From Marinomonas primoryensis (GTDB lineage Bacteria; Pseudomonadota; Gammaproteobacteria; Pseudomonadales; Marinomonadaceae): a DNA stretch of 64,000 bases. Within the stretch, counting starts at the first letter, position 1. Each line of letters opens with the position of its first letter. The stretch is taken from positions 2,349,001 through 2,413,000 of the forward strand of contig NZ_CP054301.1 in NCBI RefSeq assembly GCF_013372285.1, written 5' to 3'. Shown piece by piece: positions 1-42,167 of the stretch. The position numbers and the translations under genes are program-made. Below the pieces are notes generated by a model that was not told the origin of the DNA, searched no databases, and was given only the letters and a program-made list of their open reading frames with translations.

Positions 1-348
1 CGGGCGAAGCAACACATTGGGCTTAAGCTCTAAAGTTTTTACGGTCATTTCCCCATGAATGCAGGCGATCACAATGTCTCCGTGACGTGCCGTTAACGAG
101 CGATCCACCACCAAAACATCACCCGAATGTATGCCCGCATCGATCATCGAATCCCCTTGAGCGCGCACGTAAAACGTCGCCGCTGGGTGAGCGACACAGA
201 ACTCATTTAAGTCTAAGGATTTTTCAACAAAGTCCTGAGCAGGAGAAGGAAACCCCGCCGACACGGAATCCACATACAAAGGGATTCGCACACTGTTAGC
301 CGCGATAAACGCCGCCGACTCTGAAACACCAAGATAAGTCACACGCAT
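1..348 (-). CDS. umuD: UmuD-like S24 peptidase, translesion-synthesis accessory protein (partial)
   Basis: The protein is 116 residues to the window edge, where its C-terminus is cut off. UmuD is processed during the SOS response and partners UmuC in error-prone synthesis. Visible here are an Ala31-Gly32 cleavage dipeptide, the catalytic Ser67 in GDSM and the catalytic Lys104 in TVK, so this copy looks fully competent for self-cleavage. The ATG at 346-348 lies 14 bases from a perfect SOS box. umuC would be expected further along the minus strand, outside the window. A second, degenerate paralogue lies at 40288-40740. Family assignment is firm; partnership with umuC is inference. Confidence 0.9.
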   Translation of the reverse strand, partial: MRVTYLGVSESAAFIAANSVRIPLYVDSVSAGFPSPAQDFVEKSLDLNEFCVAHPAATFYVRAQGDSMIDAGIHSGDVLVVDRSLTARHGDIVIACIHGEMTVKTLELKPNVLLRP

Positions 349-1701: not shown

Positions 1702-2274
1702 CTAACCTTCCCCGAAGTGCCGGCCAGTGGTGTTTTTGACGCGCTCGATGGTTTCATCGATCCGTAGTGGGTTAGTTTGAAGCTGATCAACGGCGATTTG
1801 GTATTTGCGGATGGTTTCGACCATATTCATTATATCGGCGGCGGGGACGACGACAATGCTTTCTGTTATTCCCAAGGATTGGGCGATGTCGTTAATGAGT
1901 TTGAGTTTTTCGTCGTCTTGGATGGTGGCGGATAAGCCTTGTTGGATGGGTTCTTGCGGTTGCTCTGGTTGGGCTTGGTCGAAGGCGCGGATGACTTGCA
2001 GGTTGAACTTGGGGCTGATCCACATGGCGTAAGCGTACACCAGTTCTTTGCACACCCAAGTGCCACCACTTCTACCCTGATTTGTATTAACAGCTAAACT
2101 ATGCGAATTAGCATAGTTTTCAATTTCAGCTATTAACTCTTTGGTTTGTTGGTTTCTTAGGAATTGTGCTGGTAAATGACGCGACTCTGAGCCAGCGGCT
2201 TTATGAAGATCATTAAGGGAATACAATCCGTCGAGTGTGCGGATGTCTTTTGAAGAGATAATTAAATGAGCCAT
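1702..2274 (-). CDS. KilA-N domain protein
   Basis: The protein has 190 residues. Its N-terminal half (about residues 3-105) carries KilA-N hallmarks: YSLNDLHKAAG near residue 18, and a central GGTWVCKELVYAYAMWISPKF stretch ending in an aromatic helix. KilA-N is a putative DNA-binding domain common in phages and mobile elements. The C-terminal part, with a Pro/Gln-rich linker near 103-112, is helical and unassigned. The ATG is preceded by AGGAGG at optimal spacing. The 250 bases upstream form an unusual series of hairpins (2281-2515). Role likely regulatory in a prophage-like island; the target is unknown. Confidence 0.8.
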   Translation of the reverse strand: MAHLIISSKDIRTLDGLYSLNDLHKAAGSESRHLPAQFLRNQQTKELIAEIENYANSHSLAVNTNQGRSGGTWVCKELVYAYAMWISPKFNLQVIRAFDQAQPEQPQEPIQQGLSATIQDDEKLKLINDIAQSLGITESIVVVPAADIMNMVETIRKYQIAVDQLQTNPLRIDETIERVKNTTGRHFGEG

Positions 2275-2280
2275 CTATGG

Positions 2281-2515
2281 CCTCCTACGGTCTAAGTTAG
2301 ACCACCTAAACAAGGTTGCAATCTCGTATAAGGTGGTGGATCTAAATTCAGGTTGCAACAACCGCCCGTAGGAACGGCCTAACCGAAGTTAGCCCAAACA
2401 AAGACCCACCATAACAGGCGGACTCCGGCCACAAAAAAACACGCGGTGCGTGTTTTAGGCCGCTACGGTTCAAACGGGGTTGCAATCCCGACACTGGATT
2501 TTGCCAGTGCAAGGA
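2281..2515 (-). promoter_or_regulatory. Hairpin-rich leader upstream of the KilA-N gene
   Basis: This gene-free stretch contains three copies of GGTTGCAA (2314, 2351 and 2478). The second forms GGTTG-CAA-CAACC and the third sits within a CGGG-gTTGCAAt-CCCG dyad. Further dyads are GGTCTAA/TTAGACC (2290-2304), ACCACCT/AGGTGGT (2301-2337) and CACTGG/CCAGTG (2492-2509). Read on the minus strand they precede the KilA-N start and follow the operon at 2525-5205. The density suggests a structured leader, attenuator or small RNA, loosely like phage immunity regions that act through RNA. Identity not established. Confidence 0.45.
2433..2459 (-). terminator. Rho-independent terminator or attenuator
   Basis: AAAACACGC-GGT-GCGTGTTTT is a perfect 9-bp stem with a 3-base loop (2436-2456), followed on the minus strand by a T run. 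It can end the 2525-5205 operon. It also lies inside the leader of the KilA-N gene, so it could act as an attenuator. Confidence 0.7.
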
Positions 2516-2524
2516 AATAGTAGA

Positions 2525-4132
2525 TCAACGATTGGCGGGGGTCAAGAAACTACCGTCTTTGTCGGAGCTAAAATTTATATGAGCGCTTTCTAAGTTCAAA
2601 ATAATTTCCTCAGACTCTATATTCGTATTAGCTGGTAAAGGTGCAACATCATTAGTTTGTTTATATAGCCAAAAAACTGTAGCCAGTGTAAAAAAACAAA
2701 TCAAAAACCAAACTAAACAATATAAATTTCTTTTCTTATCAATATATGTGGATTCTTTTTGAGATATTGAATTCACATTAATGATTTTATTAAGATCCGA
2801 CTCATTCAGAAGATCTTTATATCTGTTTCTAACTTCATCATATCGTTCTAGAAGTCTTTTTTTATCAACGTTAATTTCAAAAATAGATACACAAAAGTAA
2901 ATACTTGAAATAATAACTAATAGGACAGCAACAAGAAGAACCTCATAACTTATAGCCCCCCCCAAACTCTTACCACTTATAGCTCTTAGCAAGAATACAG
3001 TCACGAAGAAGGTCATAAAAGTCCAGATCCCAGCTTTTACGGTAGAAAATACACTTTTAGTTAAATCAAGCGCCTTATCAGATTGACCATATAAAAAATC
3101 ATTTATCTTATTTTTTATTTCGATATATTGCTTTACATTTTCTTTAAGATATAAGTCATATCCAGACAAAATAGAGTCTAAAAGTCCATTCTCGATATTG
3201 AGAAGACGACCATCAACTAGATGTATCGACATTACATTTCTAGCAACTCCAATTTTATCAACAAAACTACCTTCTGAGTAAGCCCATGAATAAACATTAT
3301 AAATTTCATCATGATTAGCAACCTTCATTTCACTAAAAGATAACTTATCAAGAACCTTCTTATATCCTTTAATCTGAATCTCTAAATCATCATCATGAAT
3401 AGAAGAAAAGTCCGATATAAAAGTAAGACATAAAACCCCAAGAATGCCGTTCAAAATACCAGCAATCTCATTATGAGCATCACCATTAATAATTTTAAAA
3501 TCATCAGGAATCAGAAAATTATCTTTAGCGTTAACAAAGTGACTTATTTTCGCTCTATCCAATATAACTTTTTTCCTTTTCTTTTCTTTAATGAAAGAAA
3601 AGTCTAGATTTTTTTCATTATTAGAGTAAGTGGAAATGAAAAAAATTGATTCGCTATTAAACGATTTCATGTCTTCCCAAAACCTAAACTCAATTTTTCC
3701 ATCGAAACTAAACTTAGAAAACTCTTCTAAAAGAGTTTGAGCATTTAAAGTAGACAAGTATAAAAAGAAAGCTGTTTTATCAAATATATCAACAGATGAT
3801 TCACTGCGTAAATCTAAAACCTCCAACTCAAATTCAACTAATTCATCATCATCTAACGCTTGAACTTCTTGTTTCAATTCACTCATTTTTTCAGAGTAAT
3901 CATCTTTATTTGTAGAAAATCTTACACTACTCCCAAAGCCACCAAATGAAATCTGTAAGTTCTTCCCCTCAACTAATTTAAATAAATCAAACAACTCGTC
4001 AACATTAGGATAGAAAATTTCCTCAGCTTTTACTTTAGCTTTCACTTGAAAGCTATCAAAGCTACTAATGTAAACTTTAAAATCAGAAGCAAAAAATAAT
4101 CTTATAAGATCATTAGCAAAAGAGTTAATCAC
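2525..4132 (-). CDS. Three-helix membrane protein of a two-gene accessory operon
   Basis: The protein has 535 residues and I recognise no family. Residues 1-360 are predicted soluble, acidic, and mixed alpha/beta. Three hydrophobic helices follow at about 368-392, 402-426 and 472-492. Between the second and third lies a Lys/Arg/Glu-rich, coiled-coil-like segment, and the last 40 residues are polar. It starts with a GTG whose G is the last base of the upstream gene's TAG stop, so translational coupling is near certain. The coding sequence is very AT-rich compared with its neighbours, a sign of transfer. A large soluble sensor-like part tied to a membrane domain resembles effector layouts in anti-phage systems, but that is inference only. 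Confidence 0.75.
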   Translation of the reverse strand: MINSFANDLIRLFFASDFKVYISSFDSFQVKAKVKAEEIFYPNVDELFDLFKLVEGKNLQISFGGFGSSVRFSTNKDDYSEKMSELKQEVQALDDDELVEFELEVLDLRSESSVDIFDKTAFFLYLSTLNAQTLLEEFSKFSFDGKIEFRFWEDMKSFNSESIFFISTYSNNEKNLDFSFIKEKKRKKVILDRAKISHFVNAKDNFLIPDDFKIINGDAHNEIAGILNGILGVLCLTFISDFSSIHDDDLEIQIKGYKKVLDKLSFSEMKVANHDEIYNVYSWAYSEGSFVDKIGVARNVMSIHLVDGRLLNIENGLLDSILSGYDLYLKENVKQYIEIKNKINDFLYGQSDKALDLTKSVFSTVKAGIWTFMTFFVTVFLLRAISGKSLGGAISYEVLLVAVLLVIISSIYFCVSIFEINVDKKRLLERYDEVRNRYKDLLNESDLNKIINVNSISQKESTYIDKKRNLYCLVWFLICFFTLATVFWLYKQTNDVAPLPANTNIESEEIILNLESAHINFSSDKDGSFLTPANR

Positions 4133-5205
4133 TACTCACCTTTCTCAAATTCTCTATATCCAAGTTCAGAATATATTTTAATGAATTTACGACCATCAGC
4201 CTCTATCCCTGCTTTGATTTTCCCTTTCAAATCTTTAAGATCACCTTTAATGTTCAAATCAAAAAATTCATCCAAAACAACAGTATTACTTAATCTTGAC
4301 TTAATCGCACTTTTAGTAATATCAAAGGCTCTATCAAAGCCTTTTACATCAGGGAGAGACTCAATTTCAGTTATTATATCTGGGAAAACCTCATCAAATT
4401 TATACGACTTACTTTCGTCATAATCTTCAATCTTATTTAAAATATTTTTATTTTCAACTGTATGATTTTTAATCATCGATACAACATCATCGAAAACAAA
4501 TCCATCATTATTTCTATAATAATTAATCATTCCATTTTTAAGTAAAAGATAATCATACCTAGAATTCTTTTTAACTTTGCTTAAAACTTTATCTATCGAT
4601 GTATAAGATTCAAAAGTATTTATTTCAGATGAAACCAATGGTTCAGCGCGAAGAAATCTATCACACCAAAATCTTGAGATCTTACTATTACTATCGGAAA
4701 CCAAGAGTTCTGAAATTTCATTTCCGTTAAATGTAATTAAAGCTGTCTTTTGTGTTCTAGTTTTTTCTGAAGGCAATCCATCAGTAAGTTTCAGAGTTGT
4801 CAAGTCTAAAAACTCATTATCATCAACTTTGATTATGAGATATTTATTTAAACCATCATGATTAAAGTAAACTTGAATTAAGACCCCTTTACTTACTTCA
4901 TTATTTAACTTTTCTATTATCTTTTGTACTTCCAATTCTTCAGAATGCAGCTTCTTAACAATATCTTCTGAAATAGCTTCAAAAGTTTCACTTTTATTAA
5001 TAAGTGATAAAAGTCTAGATGGGACCAATTCGAAGGGTTCAACAAACCTAAATTTACAACTTCTAGGGCTAGCAATCACATCCTCAACAACCATATTAAT
5101 ATATTGCTCTAAATAACTTGTGTCTGCAGGGAATGCAACATCAACTGGGTCTGTAGCATGTACACTTAATTTATGTAATGTATGACCATAAGAAATAACT
5201 GGCAC
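4132..5205 (-). CDS. Possible NdpA/YejK-like nucleoid-associated protein, first gene of SOS-linked pair
   Basis: The chosen GTG start at 5205 gives 357 residues, is preceded by a perfect AGGAGG five bases away, and excludes upstream codons that belong to an integrase remnant in the same frame. The middle of the protein (about residues 140-195, with ISELLVSDSNSKISRFWCDRF) resembles the 37-kDa nucleoid-associated NdpA/YejK family; the rest is acidic and divergent. The assignment is tentative. A perfect SOS box lies 55 bases upstream, with the same flanking layout as the umuD promoters. It overlaps the next gene by one base. Base composition is strongly AT-rich. It may be a DNA-associated sensor whose partner acts at the membrane. 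Confidence 0.6.
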   Translation of the reverse strand: MPVISYGHTLHKLSVHATDPVDVAFPADTSYLEQYINMVVEDVIASPRSCKFRFVEPFELVPSRLLSLINKSETFEAISEDIVKKLHSEELEVQKIIEKLNNEVSKGVLIQVYFNHDGLNKYLIIKVDDNEFLDLTTLKLTDGLPSEKTRTQKTALITFNGNEISELLVSDSNSKISRFWCDRFLRAEPLVSSEINTFESYTSIDKVLSKVKKNSRYDYLLLKNGMINYYRNNDGFVFDDVVSMIKNHTVENKNILNKIEDYDESKSYKFDEVFPDIITEIESLPDVKGFDRAFDITKSAIKSRLSNTVVLDEFFDLNIKGDLKDLKGKIKAGIEADGRKFIKIYSELGYREFEKGE

Positions 5206-5257: not shown

Positions 5258-5277
5258 CACTGTATGCATGTACAGTA
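5258..5277 (-). promoter_or_regulatory. SOS box upstream of the NdpA-like/membrane operon
   Basis: CTGT-ATGCATGT-ACAG at 5260-5275 is a perfect CTGT-N8-ACAG box. On the minus strand it follows TTTAAATTATA, the same element seen before the umuD copies, so a LexA-repressed promoter reading toward 5205 is likely. It lies between the end of the dead integrase and the operon start. Confidence 0.75.
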
Positions 5278-5321: not shown

Positions 5322-6165
5322 TTATAAAAACACCAACCTCCCCCACTCCCCCAACGCTTTGCGCATCTGTTCTCTGGAATGGGTGTGCATGTAGCGCTTG
5401 TCCAGTCCGTCCCGTTCGTGGTTGAGTAGCATCTCCCCACTTTTGAATACAAGAAATCCCAGTCGATGCGCCTCTCTCATTGTCTTGCCAGCTGTCGCGG
5501 GCGAGTTTGCGTATGTCGTGGCTTGTGAATTTGATGCCGACGTCATCGCTGAGGCTTTGATACCAACGCTCTATGGTGCGTGTGGTAATGGGTTTGATGC
5601 CTTTGACGCTGAATATATAGGTGCCACGTTTGGGCAGGCTGTTGATCAGGTCCATGGCGTGTTGGGTGATGGGCAAGCGGTGCTCGGTGCCGTTTTTGGT
5701 GTTCTCTGCCGGTAGGTACTATTCCAACGCGCTGGACGAAAAGTGCTTCCATTCGGCAAGGCTGGTTTCGCCTTCTCGCGTGGCGTGGAGCAGTTGCGTC
5801 ATGAAGAAGACGCGCCGTGATGTGGGTTGTTTGTGGATGGCGGCGAGTAACGCGGGTAGGTCGTGGGGTTTGAGTCGCCCTGGTTGGCTGTCGGGCTGGG
5901 AGGTGGTGAAGCTGCTTAGGGTGATGTTTTTGGTGGGGTTGCTGGCGATGAGGCTGAGTTCTTTGGCGCGGCTAAAGGCGGTTTTGAGTACGCCAAGCAC
6001 GCCTTTTATGGTGGACAGCGCGTAGTCACTTTGCATGGGCATGTAGAGTTGCTTGTACAGTAAGGGTTTGTCGATGTGGTTGAGTCGCACTTGGTCGAGC
6101 TGTGTCAGTAGGTGGTTGCCTATGTAGCTGGACGCGGCTAACCCTAAATCCAACCATTTACGTTA
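5322..6165 (-). pseudogene. Tyrosine recombinase/integrase, decayed
   Basis: This is a phage-type tyrosine recombinase that can no longer be made. The minus-strand reading starts abruptly at RKWLDLGLAASSYIG after a stop, so the N-terminal arm-binding region is missing. Core-binding residues follow to SSALE, then a TAG at 5719 stands where TGG (Trp) is expected before YLPAENTKNG. The same frame continues through HDIRKLARDSW, which carries the catalytic HxxR, then a frameshift between about 5430 and 5490 moves the frame to GEMLLNHERDGLDKRYMHTH, holding the tyrosine region. At least three lesions are visible. It probably once moved this island. Confidence 0.85.
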
Positions 6166-6621: not shown

Positions 6622-6807
6622 CTACACTGATCTGATATACAGCCTTGCGTCGTATTTCAGTACACCATTGGTGAGCCTCTCAATTCGTAAGGCTTGTTTT
6701 TCTGGGATCACGTTTCCCCACTGTGAAATCGAGCTTGATGAAATACTCAATGTGCTGGCCAAGCACTGCTGAGTACCAAAATAGCGAATGACTTTTTCCT
6801 TGTGCAT
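6622..6807 (-). CDS. Cro-like small helix-turn-helix repressor
   Basis: The protein has 61 residues. The pattern RYFGTQQCLASTLSISSSSISQWG (given here in two parts: a positioning helix GTQQCLASTL and a recognition helix SSSSISQWG) is typical of Cro/YdaS proteins, followed by PEKQALRIERLT, the conserved tail of that family. It is divergent from the CI-type repressor at 6895, as in lambdoid immunity regions. GGGAGG precedes the ATG. The intervening 87 bases hold a 13-bp inverted repeat that may be the shared operator. Its counterpart in the second cassette is at 40881-41084. Confidence 0.8.
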   Translation of the reverse strand: MHKEKVIRYFGTQQCLASTLSISSSSISQWGNVIPEKQALRIERLTNGVLKYDARLYIRSV

Positions 6808-6830: not shown

Positions 6831-6871
6831 AGTTTGTTTTTATAAACCTTACAAGTAAATAAAAACAAACT
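6831..6871. promoter_or_regulatory. Probable cro/CI operator, 13-bp inverted repeat
   Basis: AGTTTGTTTTTAT (6831-6843) is repeated perfectly in inverse as ATAAAAACAAACT (6859-6871) with a 15-base spacer. It lies between the divergent cro-like and CI-like genes, where paired operators are expected. Binding by either protein is inference. Confidence 0.65.
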
Positions 6872-6894
6872 CAATATAGTTTAGTATTCTTAAC

Positions 6895-7542
6895 ATGGAT
6901 ATTTCAGACCGAATCAGACAAAAAATGACGGAGCACAATTTAAAAGCCGTCGACTTAGCGAGAATGACTGGCGCGACCAAAGGGTCGGTGAGTCAGTGGC
7001 TCAATGGCATTTCGTCGCCTGGCGGAAAGTACATTGTCTCTCTTACCAAAGCGCTTCGCTGTGATGCCAATTGGTTATTTGGGGGAATCTCTTCCGATCA
7101 GACCTATGCTCATTCTTCTCATGTAAATTCAACGCAGACGGCCACCAAACTACTGCCCGTCATTAACGATGATTTAGCGAAAAAATGGAACGGCTACCAT
7201 GATCATCCCAACTTAGAAAAAAACACTCAATGGGAACATGCCCCTTCTACAATAAGCGATAGTGCGTTTTGGATGGCGGCGGTAGGAGACAGCATGATCT
7301 CCCCTATTGGTCCTTGCATTGGCGAAGGTCATTTGATTTTAGTCGACCCTACTGCGGCCGCAGAAAATGGGCATTTGGTGGTGGCTCAATTGGATTCAAC
7401 CGATGAGCTGACATTTAAAAAGCTCGTCGTGGATGCCGGTCAAACCTACCTAAAACCACTAAACCCTAATTATCACGCTCTTGCTGTTTACGATAATTAT
7501 CGAATCATTGGTGTTGTGGTAGAGGCCAAAATTTTACTTTAA
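6895..7542 (+). CDS. CI-type repressor: XRE helix-turn-helix plus S24 peptidase domain
   Basis: The protein has 215 residues. Residues 5-60 form an XRE-type DNA-binding domain (TGATKGSVSQWLNG recognition region). Residues about 120-213 form an S24 (LexA/UmuD-like) domain with Ser133 in GDSM and Lys175 in TFKKL. In related repressors RecA-stimulated cleavage falls at Ala-Gly; here the corresponding position reads LAKKW (Ala95-Lys96), so ordinary cleavage is doubtful. It is divergent from a cro-like gene and 155 bases before csrA. Its paralogue at 41168 has the same length and the same catalytic positions. Confidence 0.85.
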   Translation: MDISDRIRQKMTEHNLKAVDLARMTGATKGSVSQWLNGISSPGGKYIVSLTKALRCDANWLFGGISSDQTYAHSSHVNSTQTATKLLPVINDDLAKKWNGYHDHPNLEKNTQWEHAPSTISDSAFWMAAVGDSMISPIGPCIGEGHLILVDPTAAAENGHLVVAQLDSTDELTFKKLVVDAGQTYLKPLNPNYHALAVYDNYRIIGVVVEAKILL

Positions 7543-7558
7543 CACCTCTCTTCACCAA

Positions 7559-7589
7559 TAAAAAAAGCCACAGTAAGTGGCTTTTTTTG
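7559..7589 (+). terminator. Rho-independent terminator after the CI-type repressor gene
   Basis: AAAAAAGCCAC-AGTAA-GTGGCTTTTTTT is a perfect stem with a T run, starting 18 bases after the repressor stop codon. It separates the repressor from csrA. Confidence 0.9.
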
Positions 7590-7629
7590 TGCCTGTGCTA
7601 TCAGATAAACTTCACCAAGTATATTTTTA

Positions 7630-7657
7630 TTGACTTTTATTGGTTTAAATATATAAA
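7630..7657 (+). promoter_or_regulatory. Sigma-70-type promoter of csrA copy 1
   Basis: TTGACT (7630-7635), a 16-base spacer and TATAAA (7652-7657) precede the csrA start by 40 bases. Since a terminator separates csrA from the repressor gene, this promoter probably drives it alone. Confidence 0.55.
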
Positions 7658-7696
7658 CTTTCGTTTTGAAATAACCAAACAGGGAAGGGAAAAAGT

Positions 7697-7894
7697 ATGC
7701 TCATTCTTACTCGACGGATAAACGAAACCATCAATATCGACAACAACATTCAAGTCAAAATCATCAGCGTAAAAGGCGGACAAGTCCGTATCGGCGTAAC
7801 AGCACCAAAAAACGTGATAGTGCATAGGGAAGAGATTTATAAACGGATCGAGGATCAAAAGCGTCAAGTGGATAATGAGTCGTATTGGCCGTAA
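7697..7894 (+). CDS. csrA: CsrA-family translational regulator, cassette copy 1
   Basis: This is a 65-residue CsrA homologue, an RNA-binding dimer that blocks or promotes translation at GGA motifs. Conserved features are the MLILTRR start, QVRIG, AP, and VHREEIY, whose Arg contacts RNA. The usual Gly after the N-terminal RR-hydrophobic pair is replaced by Asn (RRINET). A strong AGGGAAGGG precedes the ATG. Its position next to a CI-type repressor, repeated at 41946, suggests a mobile-element-associated csrA rather than the housekeeping copy, which usually lies near alaS. That distinction is inference. Confidence 0.9.
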
Positions 7895-8028: not shown

Positions 8029-8142
8029 GGTGGCACCTCTACCAGCCGCACCTCGGCACACAAGTCCACCGCTGTGGCTGCTTCCTTCCGGATCTGACCA
8101 GGTTCACGGTTTATCGTTGCGAGGGGACCAGCAGAGACACCA
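8029..8142 (-). ncRNA. ffs: Signal recognition particle 4.5S RNA
   Basis: Read on the minus strand, the sequence has the universally conserved SRP domain IV: GGTCAGATCCGGAAGGAAGCAGCC, here in two pieces, GGTCAG followed by TCCGGAAGGAAGCAGCC. The flanking arms GGTGTCTCTGCTGG and CTGGTAGAGGTGCCACC pair to close a long hairpin of about 110 bases, typical of bacterial 4.5S RNA. It binds Ffh for cotranslational membrane targeting. Ends are approximate. Confidence 0.95.
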
Positions 8143-8342
8143 TAAAGGAGGCTTGTTGACCTTGGGGCGCAATTATACGCAGCCAAATTGAAATATCAAC
8201 CGCCTTTCTTGCGTATTTTCAAATACTTAAAAAAATGCCTCTATTTCATTACTCCATTGCTTTTTTCCTAAGCTGTAACACTCTGTATCGACTTATTTAT
8301 TTACGGTAAGATACGCGCCATTAAGCATTGAGGAGTCGCACG

Positions 8343-9221
8343 TTGAAGCTATTTGTAAAAAACCTTACCCATGTAGATTTATCGTACTTCGATACGGAAC
8401 GTGGTTTGTTGGGTGAAAGCTGGCAGACGGACATCGTTCTGACTGGTAAGTTAAATGACGAGAGCATGATTTGCGATTTTAGTATTGTTAAGAAGCACAT
8501 CAAAAAATGGTTAGATGATCACATCGATCACATGCTGGCCATTCCTGCTAAACATGTTGGGTCGTCTTTAACCAAGCTAACCAATGATCGCGTTTCGTTT
8601 CGCTTTGATCATAGTAAAGAAAACCCAGACGACAGCCGCCGCTTTCAATGTGACGCGCCAGCTCAGGCTATTTGTGTTTTACCAATGGCGAAGATTACGC
8701 CTGATGCCGCCGCAAAGTGGGTTGAATCACAAATATTGAACTTGTTACCAGCGGAACTTGAAGCGGTCAGTGTACGTTTTTCACCAGAAAAAATTGACGG
8801 TGCAGAATACCAATATAGCCACGGTTTGAAAAAGCACGCCGGTAATTGCCAGCGTATTGCCCACGGTCATCGTTCTACGGTTGGAATATACGCCGATGGC
8901 ATTCGTAATGACGCCATGGAAAAAGACTGGGCAGATCGCTGGAAAGACATTTATTTAGGCACACAAGAAGACTTAGATAAGTACATTGAAGAAGACGGCC
9001 GTCGTTATCATTGTTTCAGCTACACCAGTCAGCAAGGGTTATTTGAACTCATGATAGACAGCAATCAAGTATACATGTTGGATTGCGATACAACGGTGGA
9101 ATCTCTCTCTGCTCATATTGCAAACGTATTGGCTCAAGAAAACCCTGGTACGCACATCGAAGCTCATGGCTTTGAAGGTATCGGCAAAGGGGCGATCTCA
9201 GATCATAAGGTGTCTCTTTAA
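8343..9221 (+). CDS. 6-pyruvoyl-tetrahydropterin synthase/QueD-family protein, double length
   Basis: The protein has 292 residues from a TTG start preceded by GAGGAG at good spacing; an earlier in-frame TTG at 8328 overlaps that ribosome-binding site and was rejected. The family uses zinc on 7,8-dihydroneopterin triphosphate-type substrates. Visible are His10 in NLTHVDLSY, the DDHIDH cluster near residue 59, and a second set NCQRIAHGHRS near residue 168, which resembles the Cys and HGH motif of QueD. It is about twice the length of standard QueD, as in many marine gammaproteobacteria. A role in queuosine precursor synthesis is likely but not proven. A queuosine mannosyltransferase lies at 36944-38044. 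Confidence 0.8.
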   Translation: MKLFVKNLTHVDLSYFDTERGLLGESWQTDIVLTGKLNDESMICDFSIVKKHIKKWLDDHIDHMLAIPAKHVGSSLTKLTNDRVSFRFDHSKENPDDSRRFQCDAPAQAICVLPMAKITPDAAAKWVESQILNLLPAELEAVSVRFSPEKIDGAEYQYSHGLKKHAGNCQRIAHGHRSTVGIYADGIRNDAMEKDWADRWKDIYLGTQEDLDKYIEEDGRRYHCFSYTSQQGLFELMIDSNQVYMLDCDTTVESLSAHIANVLAQENPGTHIEAHGFEGIGKGAISDHKVSL

Positions 9222-38966: not shown

Positions 38967-39521
38967 TTATGACTCGCCTCGCCACATTGGTGTTAACGCG
39001 CATTCGCCCAACTCACCAGAGATCCACATTTCGCTGTCTTGAATCGTGACATTTAGCTGCATAGAGCGCGTACAAATTTTCGCCAAAGCTTGTACTTGTA
39101 CTTCTGAAAACTGCAACACTCGCATGTTATCAAAACGGCTATTTTTGCCTTTATTTTGTTCCCACCAAATATCTGATTTGTCATTATAGTTCACGACCAC
39201 TACTTGTTGAGCACGCCCACAGGCTTTTCGTAAACGCTTTTCATCTGGCTGACCTAGTTCCACCCACAGTAAAATTTCATCGGAATAATTCTTCTGCCAA
39301 AGATCTGGCTCATCTTCTGTGCTAATTCCCTTAGAAAAACCTAACTGTTCACCGCCTTCTTTTTCATCTGCTAACAAAGCAAACGCCGCCAAGCGAACCA
39401 TCATTCGCTCTTCGGTTTCAGAAGGGTGTAATGCCAAGGTTAAATCATAACTTTGGTAATGGTTTCGGTCCATATCAGACACTTGAACCGATGCTTTATA
39501 AACTGTTGCTTTTGTCGCCAT
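38967..39521 (-). CDS. yaeQ: YaeQ family protein
   Basis: ATG 39521 begins MATKATVYKASVQVSDMDR, which matches the YaeQ start exactly, giving 184 residues. LWVELGQPDEKRLRKACGRA near residue 85-105 and VVVVNYND are the other family blocks. YaeQ has a PD-(D/E)XK nuclease-like fold, and was proposed to affect RfaH-dependent expression; the exact role is unsettled. It is on the opposite strand to its neighbour at 38189. Confidence 0.9.
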   Translation of the reverse strand: MATKATVYKASVQVSDMDRNHYQSYDLTLALHPSETEERMMVRLAAFALLADEKEGGEQLGFSKGISTEDEPDLWQKNYSDEILLWVELGQPDEKRLRKACGRAQQVVVVNYNDKSDIWWEQNKGKNSRFDNMRVLQFSEVQVQALAKICTRSMQLNVTIQDSEMWISGELGECALTPMWRGES

Positions 39522-39777
39522 GGGGGGTCTACTACACTGATTAAATACAAAAAAAGGACAATAAAAATCGCGATGAATTGTACAGCAAAAAGCAGCAGCA
39601 ATATCATCACCAGCCAATTGTTTTTATGACAAAAAGAGGCCAGCAAAAAAAACAAAATAAAAAAACATTATTTCGATATAAGCAATTGACATAAGGCATG
39701 AAAAAAGGCTCAATCGAGGAGCTCAAAGAGCAAAAATTACACAATTGAATACCACACAAAGATGAAGGAGAAGACAG

Positions 39778-39959: not shown

Positions 39960-40175
39960 ATGAGTATCATTGCCCTATTCAACGCAGCCAAAGACTACTT
40001 CGAAACTCGCCGCACCAACCAAGTTTTTCGTCAACTTGACGACCACTACTTAAAAGACATTGGTTTCTATCGTGACAACGGGCACATTCGTCCATTAGCG
40101 GGTAACAAAGACATCGAAAAGACAGTAATAGGAAAGTCTCAAATTCCGCCGGGAGAGCAACCGAGCGACGGATAA
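39960..40175 (+). CDS. DUF1127 (YjiS-like) small protein
   Basis: The 71-residue protein has the DUF1127 core: a positively charged helix YFETRRTNQVFRQLDDHYLKDIGF near residues 13-36, ending in the family's LxDIGxxR-like turn. Longer DUF1127 proteins affect phosphate and RNA metabolism in alphaproteobacteria; the function here is unknown. GGAGAACATT precedes the ATG. It ends with a Pro/Gly-rich tail and is followed by a strong terminator. Confidence 0.8.
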   Translation: MSIIALFNAAKDYFETRRTNQVFRQLDDHYLKDIGFYRDNGHIRPLAGNKDIEKTVIGKSQIPPGEQPSDG

Positions 40176-40287: not shown

Positions 40288-40740
40288 TTAACCACGATCT
40301 AACTGACGAACCACACTGGTCACAACGCCAAATATTTCTAAGCTCGACGTTTCTGATGTGACAACAGGAGCAGCGCTTGCCGCATAGGCTTTGTTTTTAG
40401 GTCGAAGCAGTACATCAGGTTTTAACTCCAATATCATGACCGACATCTTGCCATGCTCATAGGCAATAACAATATCCCCATGGCGAGCCGTTAATGAACG
40501 ATCCGCTACTAACACGTCACCCGTTTGAATATCGACTTTGGCAATCGATTCACCTTGAGCTCGTACAAAAAAGGTCGACGTCGGGTTTTGAATACATAAG
40601 GTATTAAGGTCCAAAGATTTATCTTTAGACGGCTGACTCTTCGGAGAAAGCTTAGCTGACTCCGAGTAAAGAGGAATTCGGATACTGTTTGCCGCAATGA
40701 AAGCAGCAGACTCTGAAGAACCAAGATACGAAACGCGCAT
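40288..40740 (-). CDS. Orphan UmuD-like protein, probably catalytically dead
   Basis: ATG 40740 begins MRVSYLG, aligned with the first UmuD copy; the 150-residue product has Ser65 in GESIA. Compared with that copy, the Ala-Gly cleavage dipeptide is replaced by Ala29-Lys30, and the catalytic Lys is replaced by Met102 (SVMILEL against TVKTLEL). Two residues are also missing in the loop. Self-cleavage should be impossible. No umuC follows. An SOS box lies 14 bases before the start, so it is still probably DNA-damage induced. It may act as a fixed full-length UmuD or as a binding partner. Confidence 0.85.
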   Translation of the reverse strand: MRVSYLGSSESAAFIAANSIRIPLYSESAKLSPKSQPSKDKSLDLNTLCIQNPTSTFFVRAQGESIAKVDIQTGDVLVADRSLTARHGDIVIAYEHGKMSVMILELKPDVLLRPKNKAYAASAAPVVTSETSSLEIFGVVTSVVRQLDRG

Positions 40741-40753
40741 AAAAAAACACTCA

Positions 40754-40773
40754 AACTGTATATCTGTACAGTA
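40754..40773 (-). promoter_or_regulatory. SOS box of the orphan umuD
   Basis: CTGT-ATATCTGT-ACAG at 40756-40771 is a perfect LexA-type box, overlapping a TATACT-like -10 on the minus strand. The layout is the same as at 363-382. Confidence 0.85.
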
Positions 40774-40880
40774 TGATTTAAACACCGCGAATAACCTAGT
40801 AAATTTTAATAAACAAACACAATTAAACGACGATTGAACAGATTAGAAACACCATCATAATGATTCTGTTTAATTAACAC

Positions 40881-41084
40881 TCAAGATATCCTTTCATGAT
40901 CTTGCAGAAGCTCACTTTCAGTTACTTCCCCCTTAGTTACTAACGAGGCTCGCCGTATATATTTGGCAGGGCAACGCTTATGGACATGTAACCAGTTCCA
41001 AACATGAGCTTGTTTCACACCTAACATTCGAGCAAGTGCCGTTTGACTTCCTACAACTACGACTACTTTTGCAATGGCTGACAT
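40881..41084 (-). CDS. Cro/YdaS-like small DNA-binding protein
   Basis: The 67-residue protein has a helix-turn-helix of the YdaS/Cro type: VGSQTALARMLGVKQAHVW near residues 11-29, then CPAKYIRRASLVTKGEVT, the tail shared with many phage Cro-like proteins. It corresponds in position to the 6622-6807 protein. It is divergent from the CI-type repressor at 41168. GGAGG lies before its ATG. The tail is longer and shares little sequence with the first copy, so the DNA site is probably different. Confidence 0.82.
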   Translation of the reverse strand: MSAIAKVVVVVGSQTALARMLGVKQAHVWNWLHVHKRCPAKYIRRASLVTKGEVTESELLQDHERIS

Positions 41085-41106
41085 ATAACCTCCTTAACAA
41101 CCTTTA

Positions 41107-41122
41107 CTGTATATGATAACAG
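41107..41122. promoter_or_regulatory. SOS-type box between cro and CI of cassette 2
   Basis: CTGT-ATATGATA-ACAG is a perfect LexA-type box between the divergent genes. It sits inside a larger imperfect dyad: ACAACCTTTACTGTA (41097-41111) and TACAGATAAAGTTGT (41141-41155), possibly operator half-sites of the repressor. Which protein binds is not known. Confidence 0.6.
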
Positions 41123-41167
41123 TTTTTATTGTTTGTCAAATACAGATAAAGTTGTAATCATTAGGAA

Positions 41168-41815
41168 ATGACTATCGCTGAACGTGTTAAGAAAAAAAGA
41201 ACAGAACTAGGACTAACTCAAGCAGAGTTAGCAAAACGTGTTGGCATTACACAGCAATCGCTGCAAAAAATCGAGGACGGCAGAACACAAAATCCTCGAA
41301 AATTAATAAGCCTATCTAAAGAGATTGGCTGTGACCCTGAGTGGTTATTACTTGGAACGGCGTGCGAAGTTAGAGAAAATCTGTCCAGTTATAACAATGG
41401 CACCCCTTCCCAGCAGTCACTATTAGATAATCAGCGACCTATTATTACCGCTTTGCAAGCAGCGGCATGGCCAGCACACAAAAATCTAAGCAATCATTCG
41501 GAATGGTTAGATTCACCTATTGAGACATCTAGAAATGCATTTTGGCTAACAGTAGTTGGCGACAGCATGACGTCGGTTTCCGGCATTAGTATTCCAGAAG
41601 GATACCTTATCCTTGTTGAACCAAATCAAAACGCCAAAAATGGTGATTTGATTGTTGCCAATACCGAAGGCAACAACGAAGTTACCTTTAAAAAGCTCGT
41701 CATAGACGCAGGTCAAATCTACTTAAAACCATTAAATCCCAATTACCGACCGATTGAAGTATCTAAAAAAGTCAATATTATTGGCGTTGTCAAACAAGCA
41801 AGAGCCCTCTTTTAA
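41168..41815 (+). CDS. CI-type repressor: XRE helix-turn-helix plus S24 domain, copy 2
   Basis: The 215-residue repressor has an XRE domain (LGLTQAELAKRVGITQQSLQKI, shown as LGLTQAELAKRV and GITQQSLQKI near residues 13-35) and an S24 domain with Ser133 in GDSM and Lys175 in TFKKL. Where a CI-like protein should have QAGEW, it has QAAAW (Ala98-Ala99), so the Ala-Gly cleavage bond is absent, as in copy 1. Both copies share the tail TFKKLV-D-AGQ-YLKPLNPNY. It is divergent from cro and followed by csrA copy 2. Confidence 0.85.
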   Translation: MTIAERVKKKRTELGLTQAELAKRVGITQQSLQKIEDGRTQNPRKLISLSKEIGCDPEWLLLGTACEVRENLSSYNNGTPSQQSLLDNQRPIITALQAAAWPAHKNLSNHSEWLDSPIETSRNAFWLTVVGDSMTSVSGISIPEGYLILVEPNQNAKNGDLIVANTEGNNEVTFKKLVIDAGQIYLKPLNPNYRPIEVSKKVNIIGVVKQARALF

Positions 41816-41881
41816 GCCACCCAGCAAGCACAAAACTCCTAGCAAGCCCTAGCTAATTAAGAAATCTTAAACTGTAAATTG

Positions 41882-41909
41882 TTGACAAACTAACAACATA
41901 AACTGTATT
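41882..41909 (+). promoter_or_regulatory. Possible sigma-70 promoter of csrA copy 2
   Basis: TTGACA (41882-41887), 16 bases, then TGTATT (41904-41909). The -35 is perfect and the -10 weak; the start codon is 37 bases further. Confidence 0.45.
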
Positions 41910-41945
41910 TTTAATATCGCCTACAACCAATAAAGGAATGGAATC

Positions 41946-42167
41946 ATGCTCGTAGTCACTCGACGCCCCGGCGAGAAAATCATTATCGGAGACGATACGG
42001 AAATCATGGTGATCAGTGTACAAGGCCCTCAAGTTCGCATTGGCATTAAAGCACCAAAAGATGTGAGCGTTCATCGAGAAGAAATTTATAACCGAATTCA
42101 ATCCTCCCAGGCACAAAAAACGGATCCATCTAATCAAAAAACAAACACTGCGAGCTCGTCGCTGTAA
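41946..42167 (+). CDS. csrA: CsrA-family translational regulator, cassette copy 2
   Basis: The 73-residue CsrA homologue starts [11 protein letters not shown], keeps QVRIGIKAP and [10 protein letters not shown], so the RNA-binding Arg is present. It has a longer, polar C-terminal tail (about 17 residues of Gln/Ser/Thr/Asn) than usual. It keeps the PGE turn that copy 1 has lost. AAGGAATGG precedes the ATG. As in cassette 1 it follows the CI-type repressor and is read in the same direction. It is the better match to canonical CsrA of the two. Confidence 0.9.

Follow-up and report, generated by a model that had tools for sequence, protein, structure and literature searches.

Gene content of the two loci

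The window examined here, a stretch of 64,000 nucleotides from the 4.07-Mb chromosome of Marinomonas primoryensis (contig NZ_CP054301.1, positions 2,349,001 to 2,413,000), holds two loci at which a divergent pair of phage-type repressor genes, cro-like and CI-like, is followed by a gene for the translational regulator CsrA. Three csrA genes occur in the genome: the canonical copy, located behind alaS and an aspartate-kinase gene (neighbours named by eye), csrA1 of locus 1 and csrA2 of locus 2. At locus 2 (40288 to 42167), the compact order of a umuD-like gene (minus strand), a cro-like gene (minus), a CI-like gene with helix-turn-helix (HTH) and S24 domains (plus) and csrA (plus) was found as claimed in the original prediction:

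40288 to 40740, minus strand: umuD2, UmuD-like; catalytic Lys replaced by Met and cleavage site lost; alternative open reading frame (ORF) start at 40785
40756 to 40771: SOS (LexA) box CTGT-N8-ACAG upstream of umuD2, by direct reading; like box in five orthologues
40881 to 41084, minus strand: cro2, Cro/YdaS-like repressor (Pfam YdaS_toxin, 2.8e-19; PHROG repressor)
41097 to 41110: predicted operator O1, ACAACCTTTACTGT (tandem operator search)
41119 to 41132: predicted operator O2, ACAGTTTTTATTGT (operator matrix and tandem operator search)
41142 to 41155: predicted operator O3, ACAGATAAAGTTGT (operator matrix and tandem operator search)
41168 to 41815, plus strand: CI2, 434-type repressor (HTH and S24); cleavage Gly lost (QAAAW)
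41882 to 41911, plus strand: csrA2 promoter-like pair TTGACA-18-TATTTT (10 of 12; pattern scan)
41893 to 41906: predicted A-type operator ACAACATAAACTGT within the csrA2 promoter-like pair; equalled in 0 of 2,000 shuffles
41946 to 42167, plus strand: csrA2 (Pfam CsrA, 3.8e-24)

The best matches of CI2 among phage records were 434 repressors (43% identity). The best Pfam match of cro2 was YdaS, its match to P22_Cro (9e-4) lying under that family's cut-off, and PADLOC returned nothing for csrA2 or cro2. The CsrA genes scored above the Pfam PF02599 cut-off, and Arg44, which has a role in RNA binding, was invariant in eight CsrA sequences.

Locus 1 matched locus 2 in its four genes, their order and their directions, as had also been claimed, but it was not compact: umuDC (minus) is followed by ∼6 kb of other genes before cro1 (minus), CI1 (plus) and csrA1 (plus), so that umuD1 and cro1 lie ∼6.2 kb apart. 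Its repressor-csrA part consists of the following features:

6622 to 6807, minus strand: cro1 (Pfam P22_Cro, 3.3e-21)
6832 to 6847: predicted B-type operator GTTTGTTTTTATAAAC (operator matrix)
6855 to 6870: predicted B-type operator GTAAATAAAAACAAAC, assigned by eye, outside the matrix
6879 to 6894: predicted B-type operator GTTTAGTATTCTTAAC, abutting the CI1 start (operator matrix)
6895 to 7542, plus strand: CI1 repressor (HTH and S24); cleavage Gly lost (LAKKW)
7558 to 7590, plus strand: terminator-like hairpin in the CI1-csrA1 interval (−18.6 kcal/mol, z −4.9)
7630 to 7659, plus strand: csrA1 promoter-like pair TTGACT-18-TAAACT (9 of 12; pattern scan)
7643 to 7658: predicted B-type operator GTTTAAATATATAAAC across the csrA1 promoter-like pair; equalled in 4 of 2,000 shuffles
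7697 to 7894, plus strand: csrA1 (Pfam CsrA, 1.4e-22)

Each of the two cro-CI gaps thus carries three predicted operators, which are 14 bp long and 434-like at locus 2 and 16 bp long and of another type at locus 1. At both loci cro and CI diverge over this putative common operator region, the arrangement by which a lambdoid immunity region is recognized.

Conservation of CI-csrA adjacency at two chromosomal sites

Adjacency was surveyed in 48 Marinomonas genomes, in which strong CI hits (≥100 bits) also numbered 48; 40 regions around CI matches were gene-mapped. csrA was located within 3 kb downstream on the same strand at 30 of the 48 hits, versus ∼0.04 expected by chance, and within 400 bp at 27 (the tally omits three second fragments of one csrA gene). 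The phage-like immunity switch with a translational regulator that had been proposed for the window therefore recurs, beyond chance, in many other genomes of the genus. The CI alignment comprised 41 sequences: 21 from the chromosomal site of locus 2 (CI2 type, site A), 8 from that of locus 1 (CI1 type, site B) and 12 phage-like ones. Seven strong hits counted for adjacency stood outside this alignment (G023, G016, G004, G030 C4, G014 C9, G045 C23:87958 and G038 C30).

All 21 CI2-type loci, including the window's own, lay beside one conserved gene (38967 to 39617 in the window), and hence at the same chromosomal site. This marker gene was present in 46 of the 48 genomes; in G013, ∼5 kb of other DNA separates it from the cassette. 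Next to site A, a small conserved ORF (39960 to 40175 in the window) was found in 16 of the 21 loci; it is a putative DUF1127 gene, in which Pfam found no family. cro, CI and csrA were all present at 18 site-A loci, CI and csrA with no detected cro at two (G017 and G047), and cro and CI with no csrA at one (G029). The site was maintained over CI identities down to ∼47%. Among the 8 CI1-type loci, the gene at 8328 to 9221 and hisI were found on the csrA side in 6 within the region read; in G005 the contig ended before these flanks, and in G031 they were not found.

The whole four-gene order also occurred in M. sp. UCMA 3892, M. polaris, M. lutimaris and M. rhizomae, and all named relatives with a CI2 gene belonged to Marinomonas, except for one weak match. 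Among 145 genomes of the order, CI2-like matches at an E value of 1e-25 were obtained in 7 non-Marinomonas genomes (8 places), and no csrA match was present within ∼100 kb of the CI2-like gene on the same contig in any of these 7, so that in this sample the wiring was confined to Marinomonas. Two genomes of other genera in the order (G062 and G113) had 9 and 10 csrA matches, respectively.

Predicted operators in the csrA promoters

Operator matrices were built from the cro-CI gaps alone and then applied to the csrA promoters. A predicted operator of the locus's own type was present in 19 of 20 site-A csrA promoters (0 to 4 of 2,000 shuffles as good) and in all 6 site-B promoters (3 to 19 of 2,000), i.e., in 25 of 26 at both sites together, although the compared sequences are relatives and do not amount to 26 independent tests. 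The best value of the cross-type scans was 88 of 2,000 shuffles. In the window, the predicted operators lie inside the best csrA2 promoter-like pair and over the best csrA1 pair. Shuffled regions yielded about as many such pairs (4 at locus 2 versus 4.1 expected; 4 at locus 1 versus 3.1 expected), and the match of the csrA2 promoter-like pair alone is therefore no evidence.

In a search of the 48 genomes for tandem operator pairs, the M. primoryensis genome contained one in the locus-2 gap only. At least 10 relatives also had a tandem pair ahead of csrA, in its promoter; with the pattern reversed as a control, each genome gave 0 or 1. In some relatives tandem pairs lay elsewhere, at other prophage-type CI genes or in unrelated places (at least one each in G001, G007, G010, G012, G020 and G022).

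In five prophages the csrA promoter tracked the immunity type and not the csrA coding lineage. Where CI types differed, the csrA genes of viral contigs L201 and L222 were 93% alike and their promoters 48%, and those of G005 and G036 90% and 43%. Where CI types were the same, the csrA genes of L222 and G036 were 66% alike and their promoters 92%, and those of L201 and G005 68% and 76%. The longest word common to the CI and csrA promoters of one prophage measured 17, 15 and 13 bases for one type and 10, 13 and 8 bases for the other, compared with 7 to 9 bases for promoters across types.

Loss of the cleavage site and the place of UmuD2

The Ala-Gly cleavage bond was present in 12 of 12 phage-like CI proteins, and the cleavage Gly in none of the 29 chromosomal ones (0 of 21 at site A and 0 of 8 at site B), in which the residue varied (Ala, Ile, Met, Leu, Phe, Lys or Glu). 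The Ala/Cys-Gly bond that typifies lambda-type SOS-inducible CI is thus missing from the chromosomal repressors, and CI of G032 and G013 has Asn in place of the catalytic Ser. As the Gly is lacking in both chromosomal clades, the sequences suggest that it was lost twice, after capture. The CI1 and CI2 switches are consequently predicted to be uncoupled from the SOS response, and the repressors' loss of the damage-tripping site suggests a viral switch tamed to govern csrA, not a circuit that responds to DNA damage. The link to DNA damage that the original prediction had drawn through CI and UmuD was therefore not borne out on the CI side, nor was it on the side of UmuD2: the catalytic Lys was lost from 11 of 12 site-A UmuD proteins (G045 keeps it) and the Ser from 7 of 12 (residues in G010, G043 and G044 judged by eye). 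UmuD2 of the window retains the Ser and has lost the Lys and the cleavage site. UmuD1-type proteins kept the Lys in 10 of 10 cases, and umuD1 has umuC; no umuC match was found beside umuD2 in the mapped regions holding it. The catalytic Ser/Lys pair, cleavage site and umuC operon expected of a functional UmuD are thus not found together at site A.

UmuD had also been regarded as an integral member of the cassette, which its distribution does not support. umuD2 adjoined CI at 8 of 21 site-A loci and was absent from 13, and four genomes (G030, G010, G043 and G044) had UmuD-like genes at site A with no CI. At L251, L252 and L253, in genomes with no CI-csrA cassette, the UmuD-like gene of this site lacks the catalytic Lys. 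By sequence, umuD2 appears to be a separate, catalytically dead UmuD paralogue of site A and a side-piece of the cassette. Its dN/dS (ratio of nonsynonymous to synonymous substitution rates) was low, 0.03 to 0.22 in 9 pairs, indicating that the gene is retained. Because an SOS-box-like site of its own was read directly in the window and is present in five orthologues, umuD2 itself may be SOS induced; G045 had no such box, and in G018 and G030 an extended ORF start made the stretch ambiguous. From general knowledge of Escherichia coli UmuD, a UmuD that is SOS induced but resists cleavage could damp UmuD'-UmuC. UmuDAb of Acinetobacter, as described in the excerpts of PMC4807011 and PMC11332147, is similarly a UmuD homologue diverted to another role; unlike UmuD2, in which Pfam found only S24, it acts as a repressor, for which its N-terminal domain is required.

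Probable prophage origin of the two loci

In the CI tree, the 21 site-A sequences formed one clade (support 100/99) that grouped with the prophage CI sequences G005a and G020 (98/91), and the 8 site-B sequences formed another (100/100) that grouped with other prophage CI sequences (83/77). The two loci, placed separately among phage CI proteins, are thus parallel captures and not copies of one another. Duplication of one cassette, as originally proposed, was ruled out by this tree, even though the shared gene order is no product of chance.

The prophages of G005, G020, G032 and G036 had the order csrA, CI, cro, integrase, KilA-N gene and GpA-type terminase (the latter by Pfam for G005, G020 and G032 and by tblastn, 97%, for G036), and all four carried isrK and C4 RNAs next to the KilA-N gene. 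Pfam identified portal, capsid and tail genes in the G005 prophage and a baseplate gene in that of G032. The interval between the KilA-N gene and the terminase contained umuDC in G020, umuD in G005 and umuC in G032; in G036 it gave no umuD or umuC match. In a search of 16 genomes, a phrog_2 terminase was located 11 to 17 kb from 4 of the 12 phage-like CI genes (G008, G019, G045 and G029); those of G045 C12, G037, G014 and G026 are phage-like with no prophage confirmation. isrK and C4 beside a KilA-N gene were also seen in G030, and in L151 (G018) C4 alone reached the cut-off.

Between umuD1 and cro1, locus 1 contained two lipoprotein-like ORFs (by eye), a KilA-N gene, C4 and isrK RNAs, a two-gene operon and an integrase fragment:

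1 to 348, minus strand: umuD1, cut by the window edge; umuC next, outside the window (L010:6631-7905)
365 to 380: SOS box of umuDC (sequence reading)
1702 to 2274, minus strand: KilA-N gene, antirepressor-like (Pfam KilA-N, 2.4e-23; PHROG anti-repressor, 5.9e-9)
2329 to 2416, minus strand: C4 antisense RNA (Rfam RF01695, 51.7 bits)
2434 to 2510, minus strand: isrK RNA (Rfam RF01394, 61.5 bits)
5719 to 6153, minus strand: phage integrase fragment (PHROG integrase, 1.5e-11)

The KilA-N gene matched other PHROGs better than the anti-repressor family, either ones of unknown function or "transcriptional regulator," and PADLOC gave one weak match for it. With the integrase fragment, isrK, C4, KilA-N and umuDC retained, locus 1 reads as a shrunken prophage of the kind found in G005, G020, G032 and G036, an origin that would explain the like order and directions of umuD, cro, CI and csrA at both loci. 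In G032, the prophage, adjoining umuDC and the site-B markers (8328-like gene and hisI) all lay within ∼35 kb (L143 and L170), which places a prophage of this kind near site B there.

The two-gene operon (2525 to 5205, minus strand) encodes proteins of 357 and 535 amino acids, of which the longer shows hydrophobic stretches by eye, and has an SOS-box-like sequence, CTGTATGCATGTACAG, upstream, near 5262 to 5277. Both proteins matched PHROGs of unknown function and had no PADLOC match; the pair was also present in G018 (96% and 86% identical). A signal recognition particle RNA gene (8037 to 8133, minus strand) adjoins locus 1 and was the same neighbour in L149 and L151.

In a CsrA tree of 65 columns, the chromosomal and prophage csrA of Marinomonas were separate from canonical csrA at 91/76, where the rows labelled "canonical" also take in an extra G002 csrA, which groups with the noncanonical ones, and two csrA of phages. 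Several Marinomonas prophages and two viral contigs (L130, L143, L146, L201 and L222) encoded a CsrA of ∼100 amino acids that combines a partial and a full copy in one chain.

Selection and expression

The dN/dS values indicated purifying selection: CI ranged from 0.03 to 0.19 in 18 pairs, cro reached at most 0.20 in 16, and csrA ranged from 0.02 to 0.32 in 16, except for a single value of 0.44 at a dS of 0.04. Several dS values were near saturation, and species recurred across pairs. According to the excerpt of PMC8523701, CsrA2 of M. mediterranea was expressed at very low levels under all conditions assayed, with 36 versus 1208 normalised counts in one medium. By position and identity, this CsrA2 is taken, short of proof, to be the csrA near CI of G020; the latter showed 36 identical residues, or 59% over the full length, and the excerpt gives 64%.

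Interpretation

On these data we consider it likely, with a probability of about three in four, that the two loci are independently domesticated immunity regions of temperate phages, predicted to be uncoupled from SOS, in which CI (and Cro) represses a second csrA. CI and the Cro-like repressor would act through their common three-operator divergent region, and CI (and Cro) would bind the csrA operator between or over the −35 and −10 elements and thereby repress csrA2 and csrA1. The switch would no longer answer RecA directly; its trigger, if there is any, might be an antirepressor such as KilA-N with C4/isrK, a related phage or spontaneous CI/Cro switching, upon which CsrA dosage would rise. 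The KilA-N/C4/isrK unit is a candidate trigger at locus 1 only. More speculatively, the device may be a heritable, damage-independent ON/OFF switch for the second CsrA, in which CI-off/Cro-on cells would keep extra CsrA after an antirepressor or related phage had tripped it.

Several observations weigh against this interpretation. csrA was absent beside CI in 3 of 29 loci (G029 at site A, and G028 and G040 at site B), so that CI, which was retained there, has value with no csrA; no cro was detected at G017 and G047, so that the toggle is not universal; and the matrix scan found no operator in the csrA promoter of G002. The common word of 8 bases in the G020 prophage was no better than those of cross pairs. 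A de novo operator-sharing test that used no matrix reached the 5% level in just 11 of 30 Marinomonas loci and in 0 of 19 csrA-bearing viral contigs, two of which (L201 and L222) had entered with a misplaced csrA start; this shared-palindrome test has little power per locus (locus 2 itself scored 44/200, and the mismatched control gave 1/19 at 5%). The link between M. mediterranea CsrA2 and G020 is loose, and the G020 csrA is a prophage gene whose promoter has no clear operator. Finally, CI of G028 and G036 (site A) carries a Phe-Gly one residue on, next to a deletion, and the Ala-Ala at the CI2 site might still be cut slowly.

The loss of csrA from those three loci with CI still in place would also fit a relic of immunity, with CI kept as a noninducible repressor against infection or induction by related phages and csrA and its operator carried as passengers. 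The HTH sequence common to CI2 and the prophage CI proteins of G005 and G020 (QQSLQKIEDGRT or nearly so) is consistent with this possibility, which we nevertheless regard as doubtful: csrA is itself under purifying selection, operators were predicted in 25 of 26 of its promoters, and G017 and G047 retained CI, operator and csrA where cro was not found.

That csrA is instead a lysogenic-conversion gene, read through from the CI promoter and ON together with CI, seems improbable for these loci, although it may apply in other phages whose csrA lies downstream of CI. Among the best 80 of 378 csrA-bearing viral contigs, 19 had a CI-like gene on the same strand at most 1.5 kb upstream, the same 19 in which the de novo test found no common operator (L201 and L222 with the start error), and a pattern scan revealed no terminator between CI2 and csrA2. 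The same scan did not pick up the hairpin behind CI1, however, and this hairpin, the promoter-like pairs with predicted operators over them and the low expression of M. mediterranea CsrA2 in the PMC8523701 excerpt speak against read-through; cotranscription with CI as the main mode of csrA expression was rejected on these grounds.

A cassette in which DNA damage cleaves CI and UmuD and so turns csrA on is very unlikely. The umuD2 SOS box of the window and five orthologues and an exact CTGT-N8-ACAG word in 10 of 19 site-A cro-CI gaps would suit it, but the cleavage Gly is missing from all 29 chromosomal CI proteins, the UmuD2 Lys is lost in 11 of 12 cases and 13 of the 21 site-A loci have no umuD2. 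Moreover, the LexA-like word of the gap is made up of the right half of O1 and the left half of O2, has one mismatch in 7 of the 19 gaps and is missing in 2; LexA control of cro2-CI2 was rejected accordingly. Functionless, decaying prophage debris, which the integrase fragment at locus 1 and the lack of csrA or cro in some species might suggest, is the least credible explanation, given the CI dN/dS of 0.03 to 0.19 over 18 pairs, similar values for cro, csrA and umuD2, and a site kept down to ∼47% CI identity.

The domesticated immunity regions favoured here resemble two known systems. The DicA/DicC-dicBF system of the cryptic Qin prophage of E. coli, in the excerpt of PMC10448788, is also a CI/Cro-like pair; DicA has no Ala-Gly bond, switching is RecA independent, a further promoter drives a host-affecting operon, and Rem serves as the antirepressor. 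Unlike DicA (135 amino acids), CI1 and CI2 keep the S24 domain, and the output is CsrA, in two captures within one genus, instead of DicF/DicB. In the PaaR2/YdaS system of CP-933P in E. coli O157:H7, as the excerpt of PMC8630535 has it, a CI-like and a Cro-like protein share overlapping operators, as in Marinomonas, where cro2 matches YdaS; that system is bistable, with an additional regulated promoter and a PaaR2 that has no autocleavage peptidase motif, and its output differs in being a toxin-antitoxin pair in the paaR2 operon. With these systems the Marinomonas loci share a predicted-uncleavable CI-like repressor and a Cro-like partner in a prophage remnant, with cro not found at G017 and G047. 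csrA/rsmA homologues are likewise carried by phages, plasmids and mobile elements; the excerpts of PMC7366521 and PMC8450108 report their presence and a possible anti-CRISPR role, but neither a position under a CI operator nor joint domestication with CI. In the titles and abstract openings of the top matches in the open-licence PMC literature, no account of csrA governed by a phage CI operator was found. The kind of switch, a CI/Cro pair in a cryptic prophage, is thus already known; CsrA as its predicted output, captured twice, would be new.

The Marinomonas loci would represent a natural case, occurring twice in one genus and in about twenty genomes, of a phage decision circuit that has been tamed, having lost its damage-sensing bond and retained its operator wiring, with a global RNA regulator as the output. 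They make it testable whether cleavage was lost before or after domestication, whether csrA is the reason for retention, and whether two heritable CI/Cro states exist. If the heritable device were real, it would place a global RNA regulator under control resembling phase variation, in which cells would carry a different post-transcriptional state through divisions.

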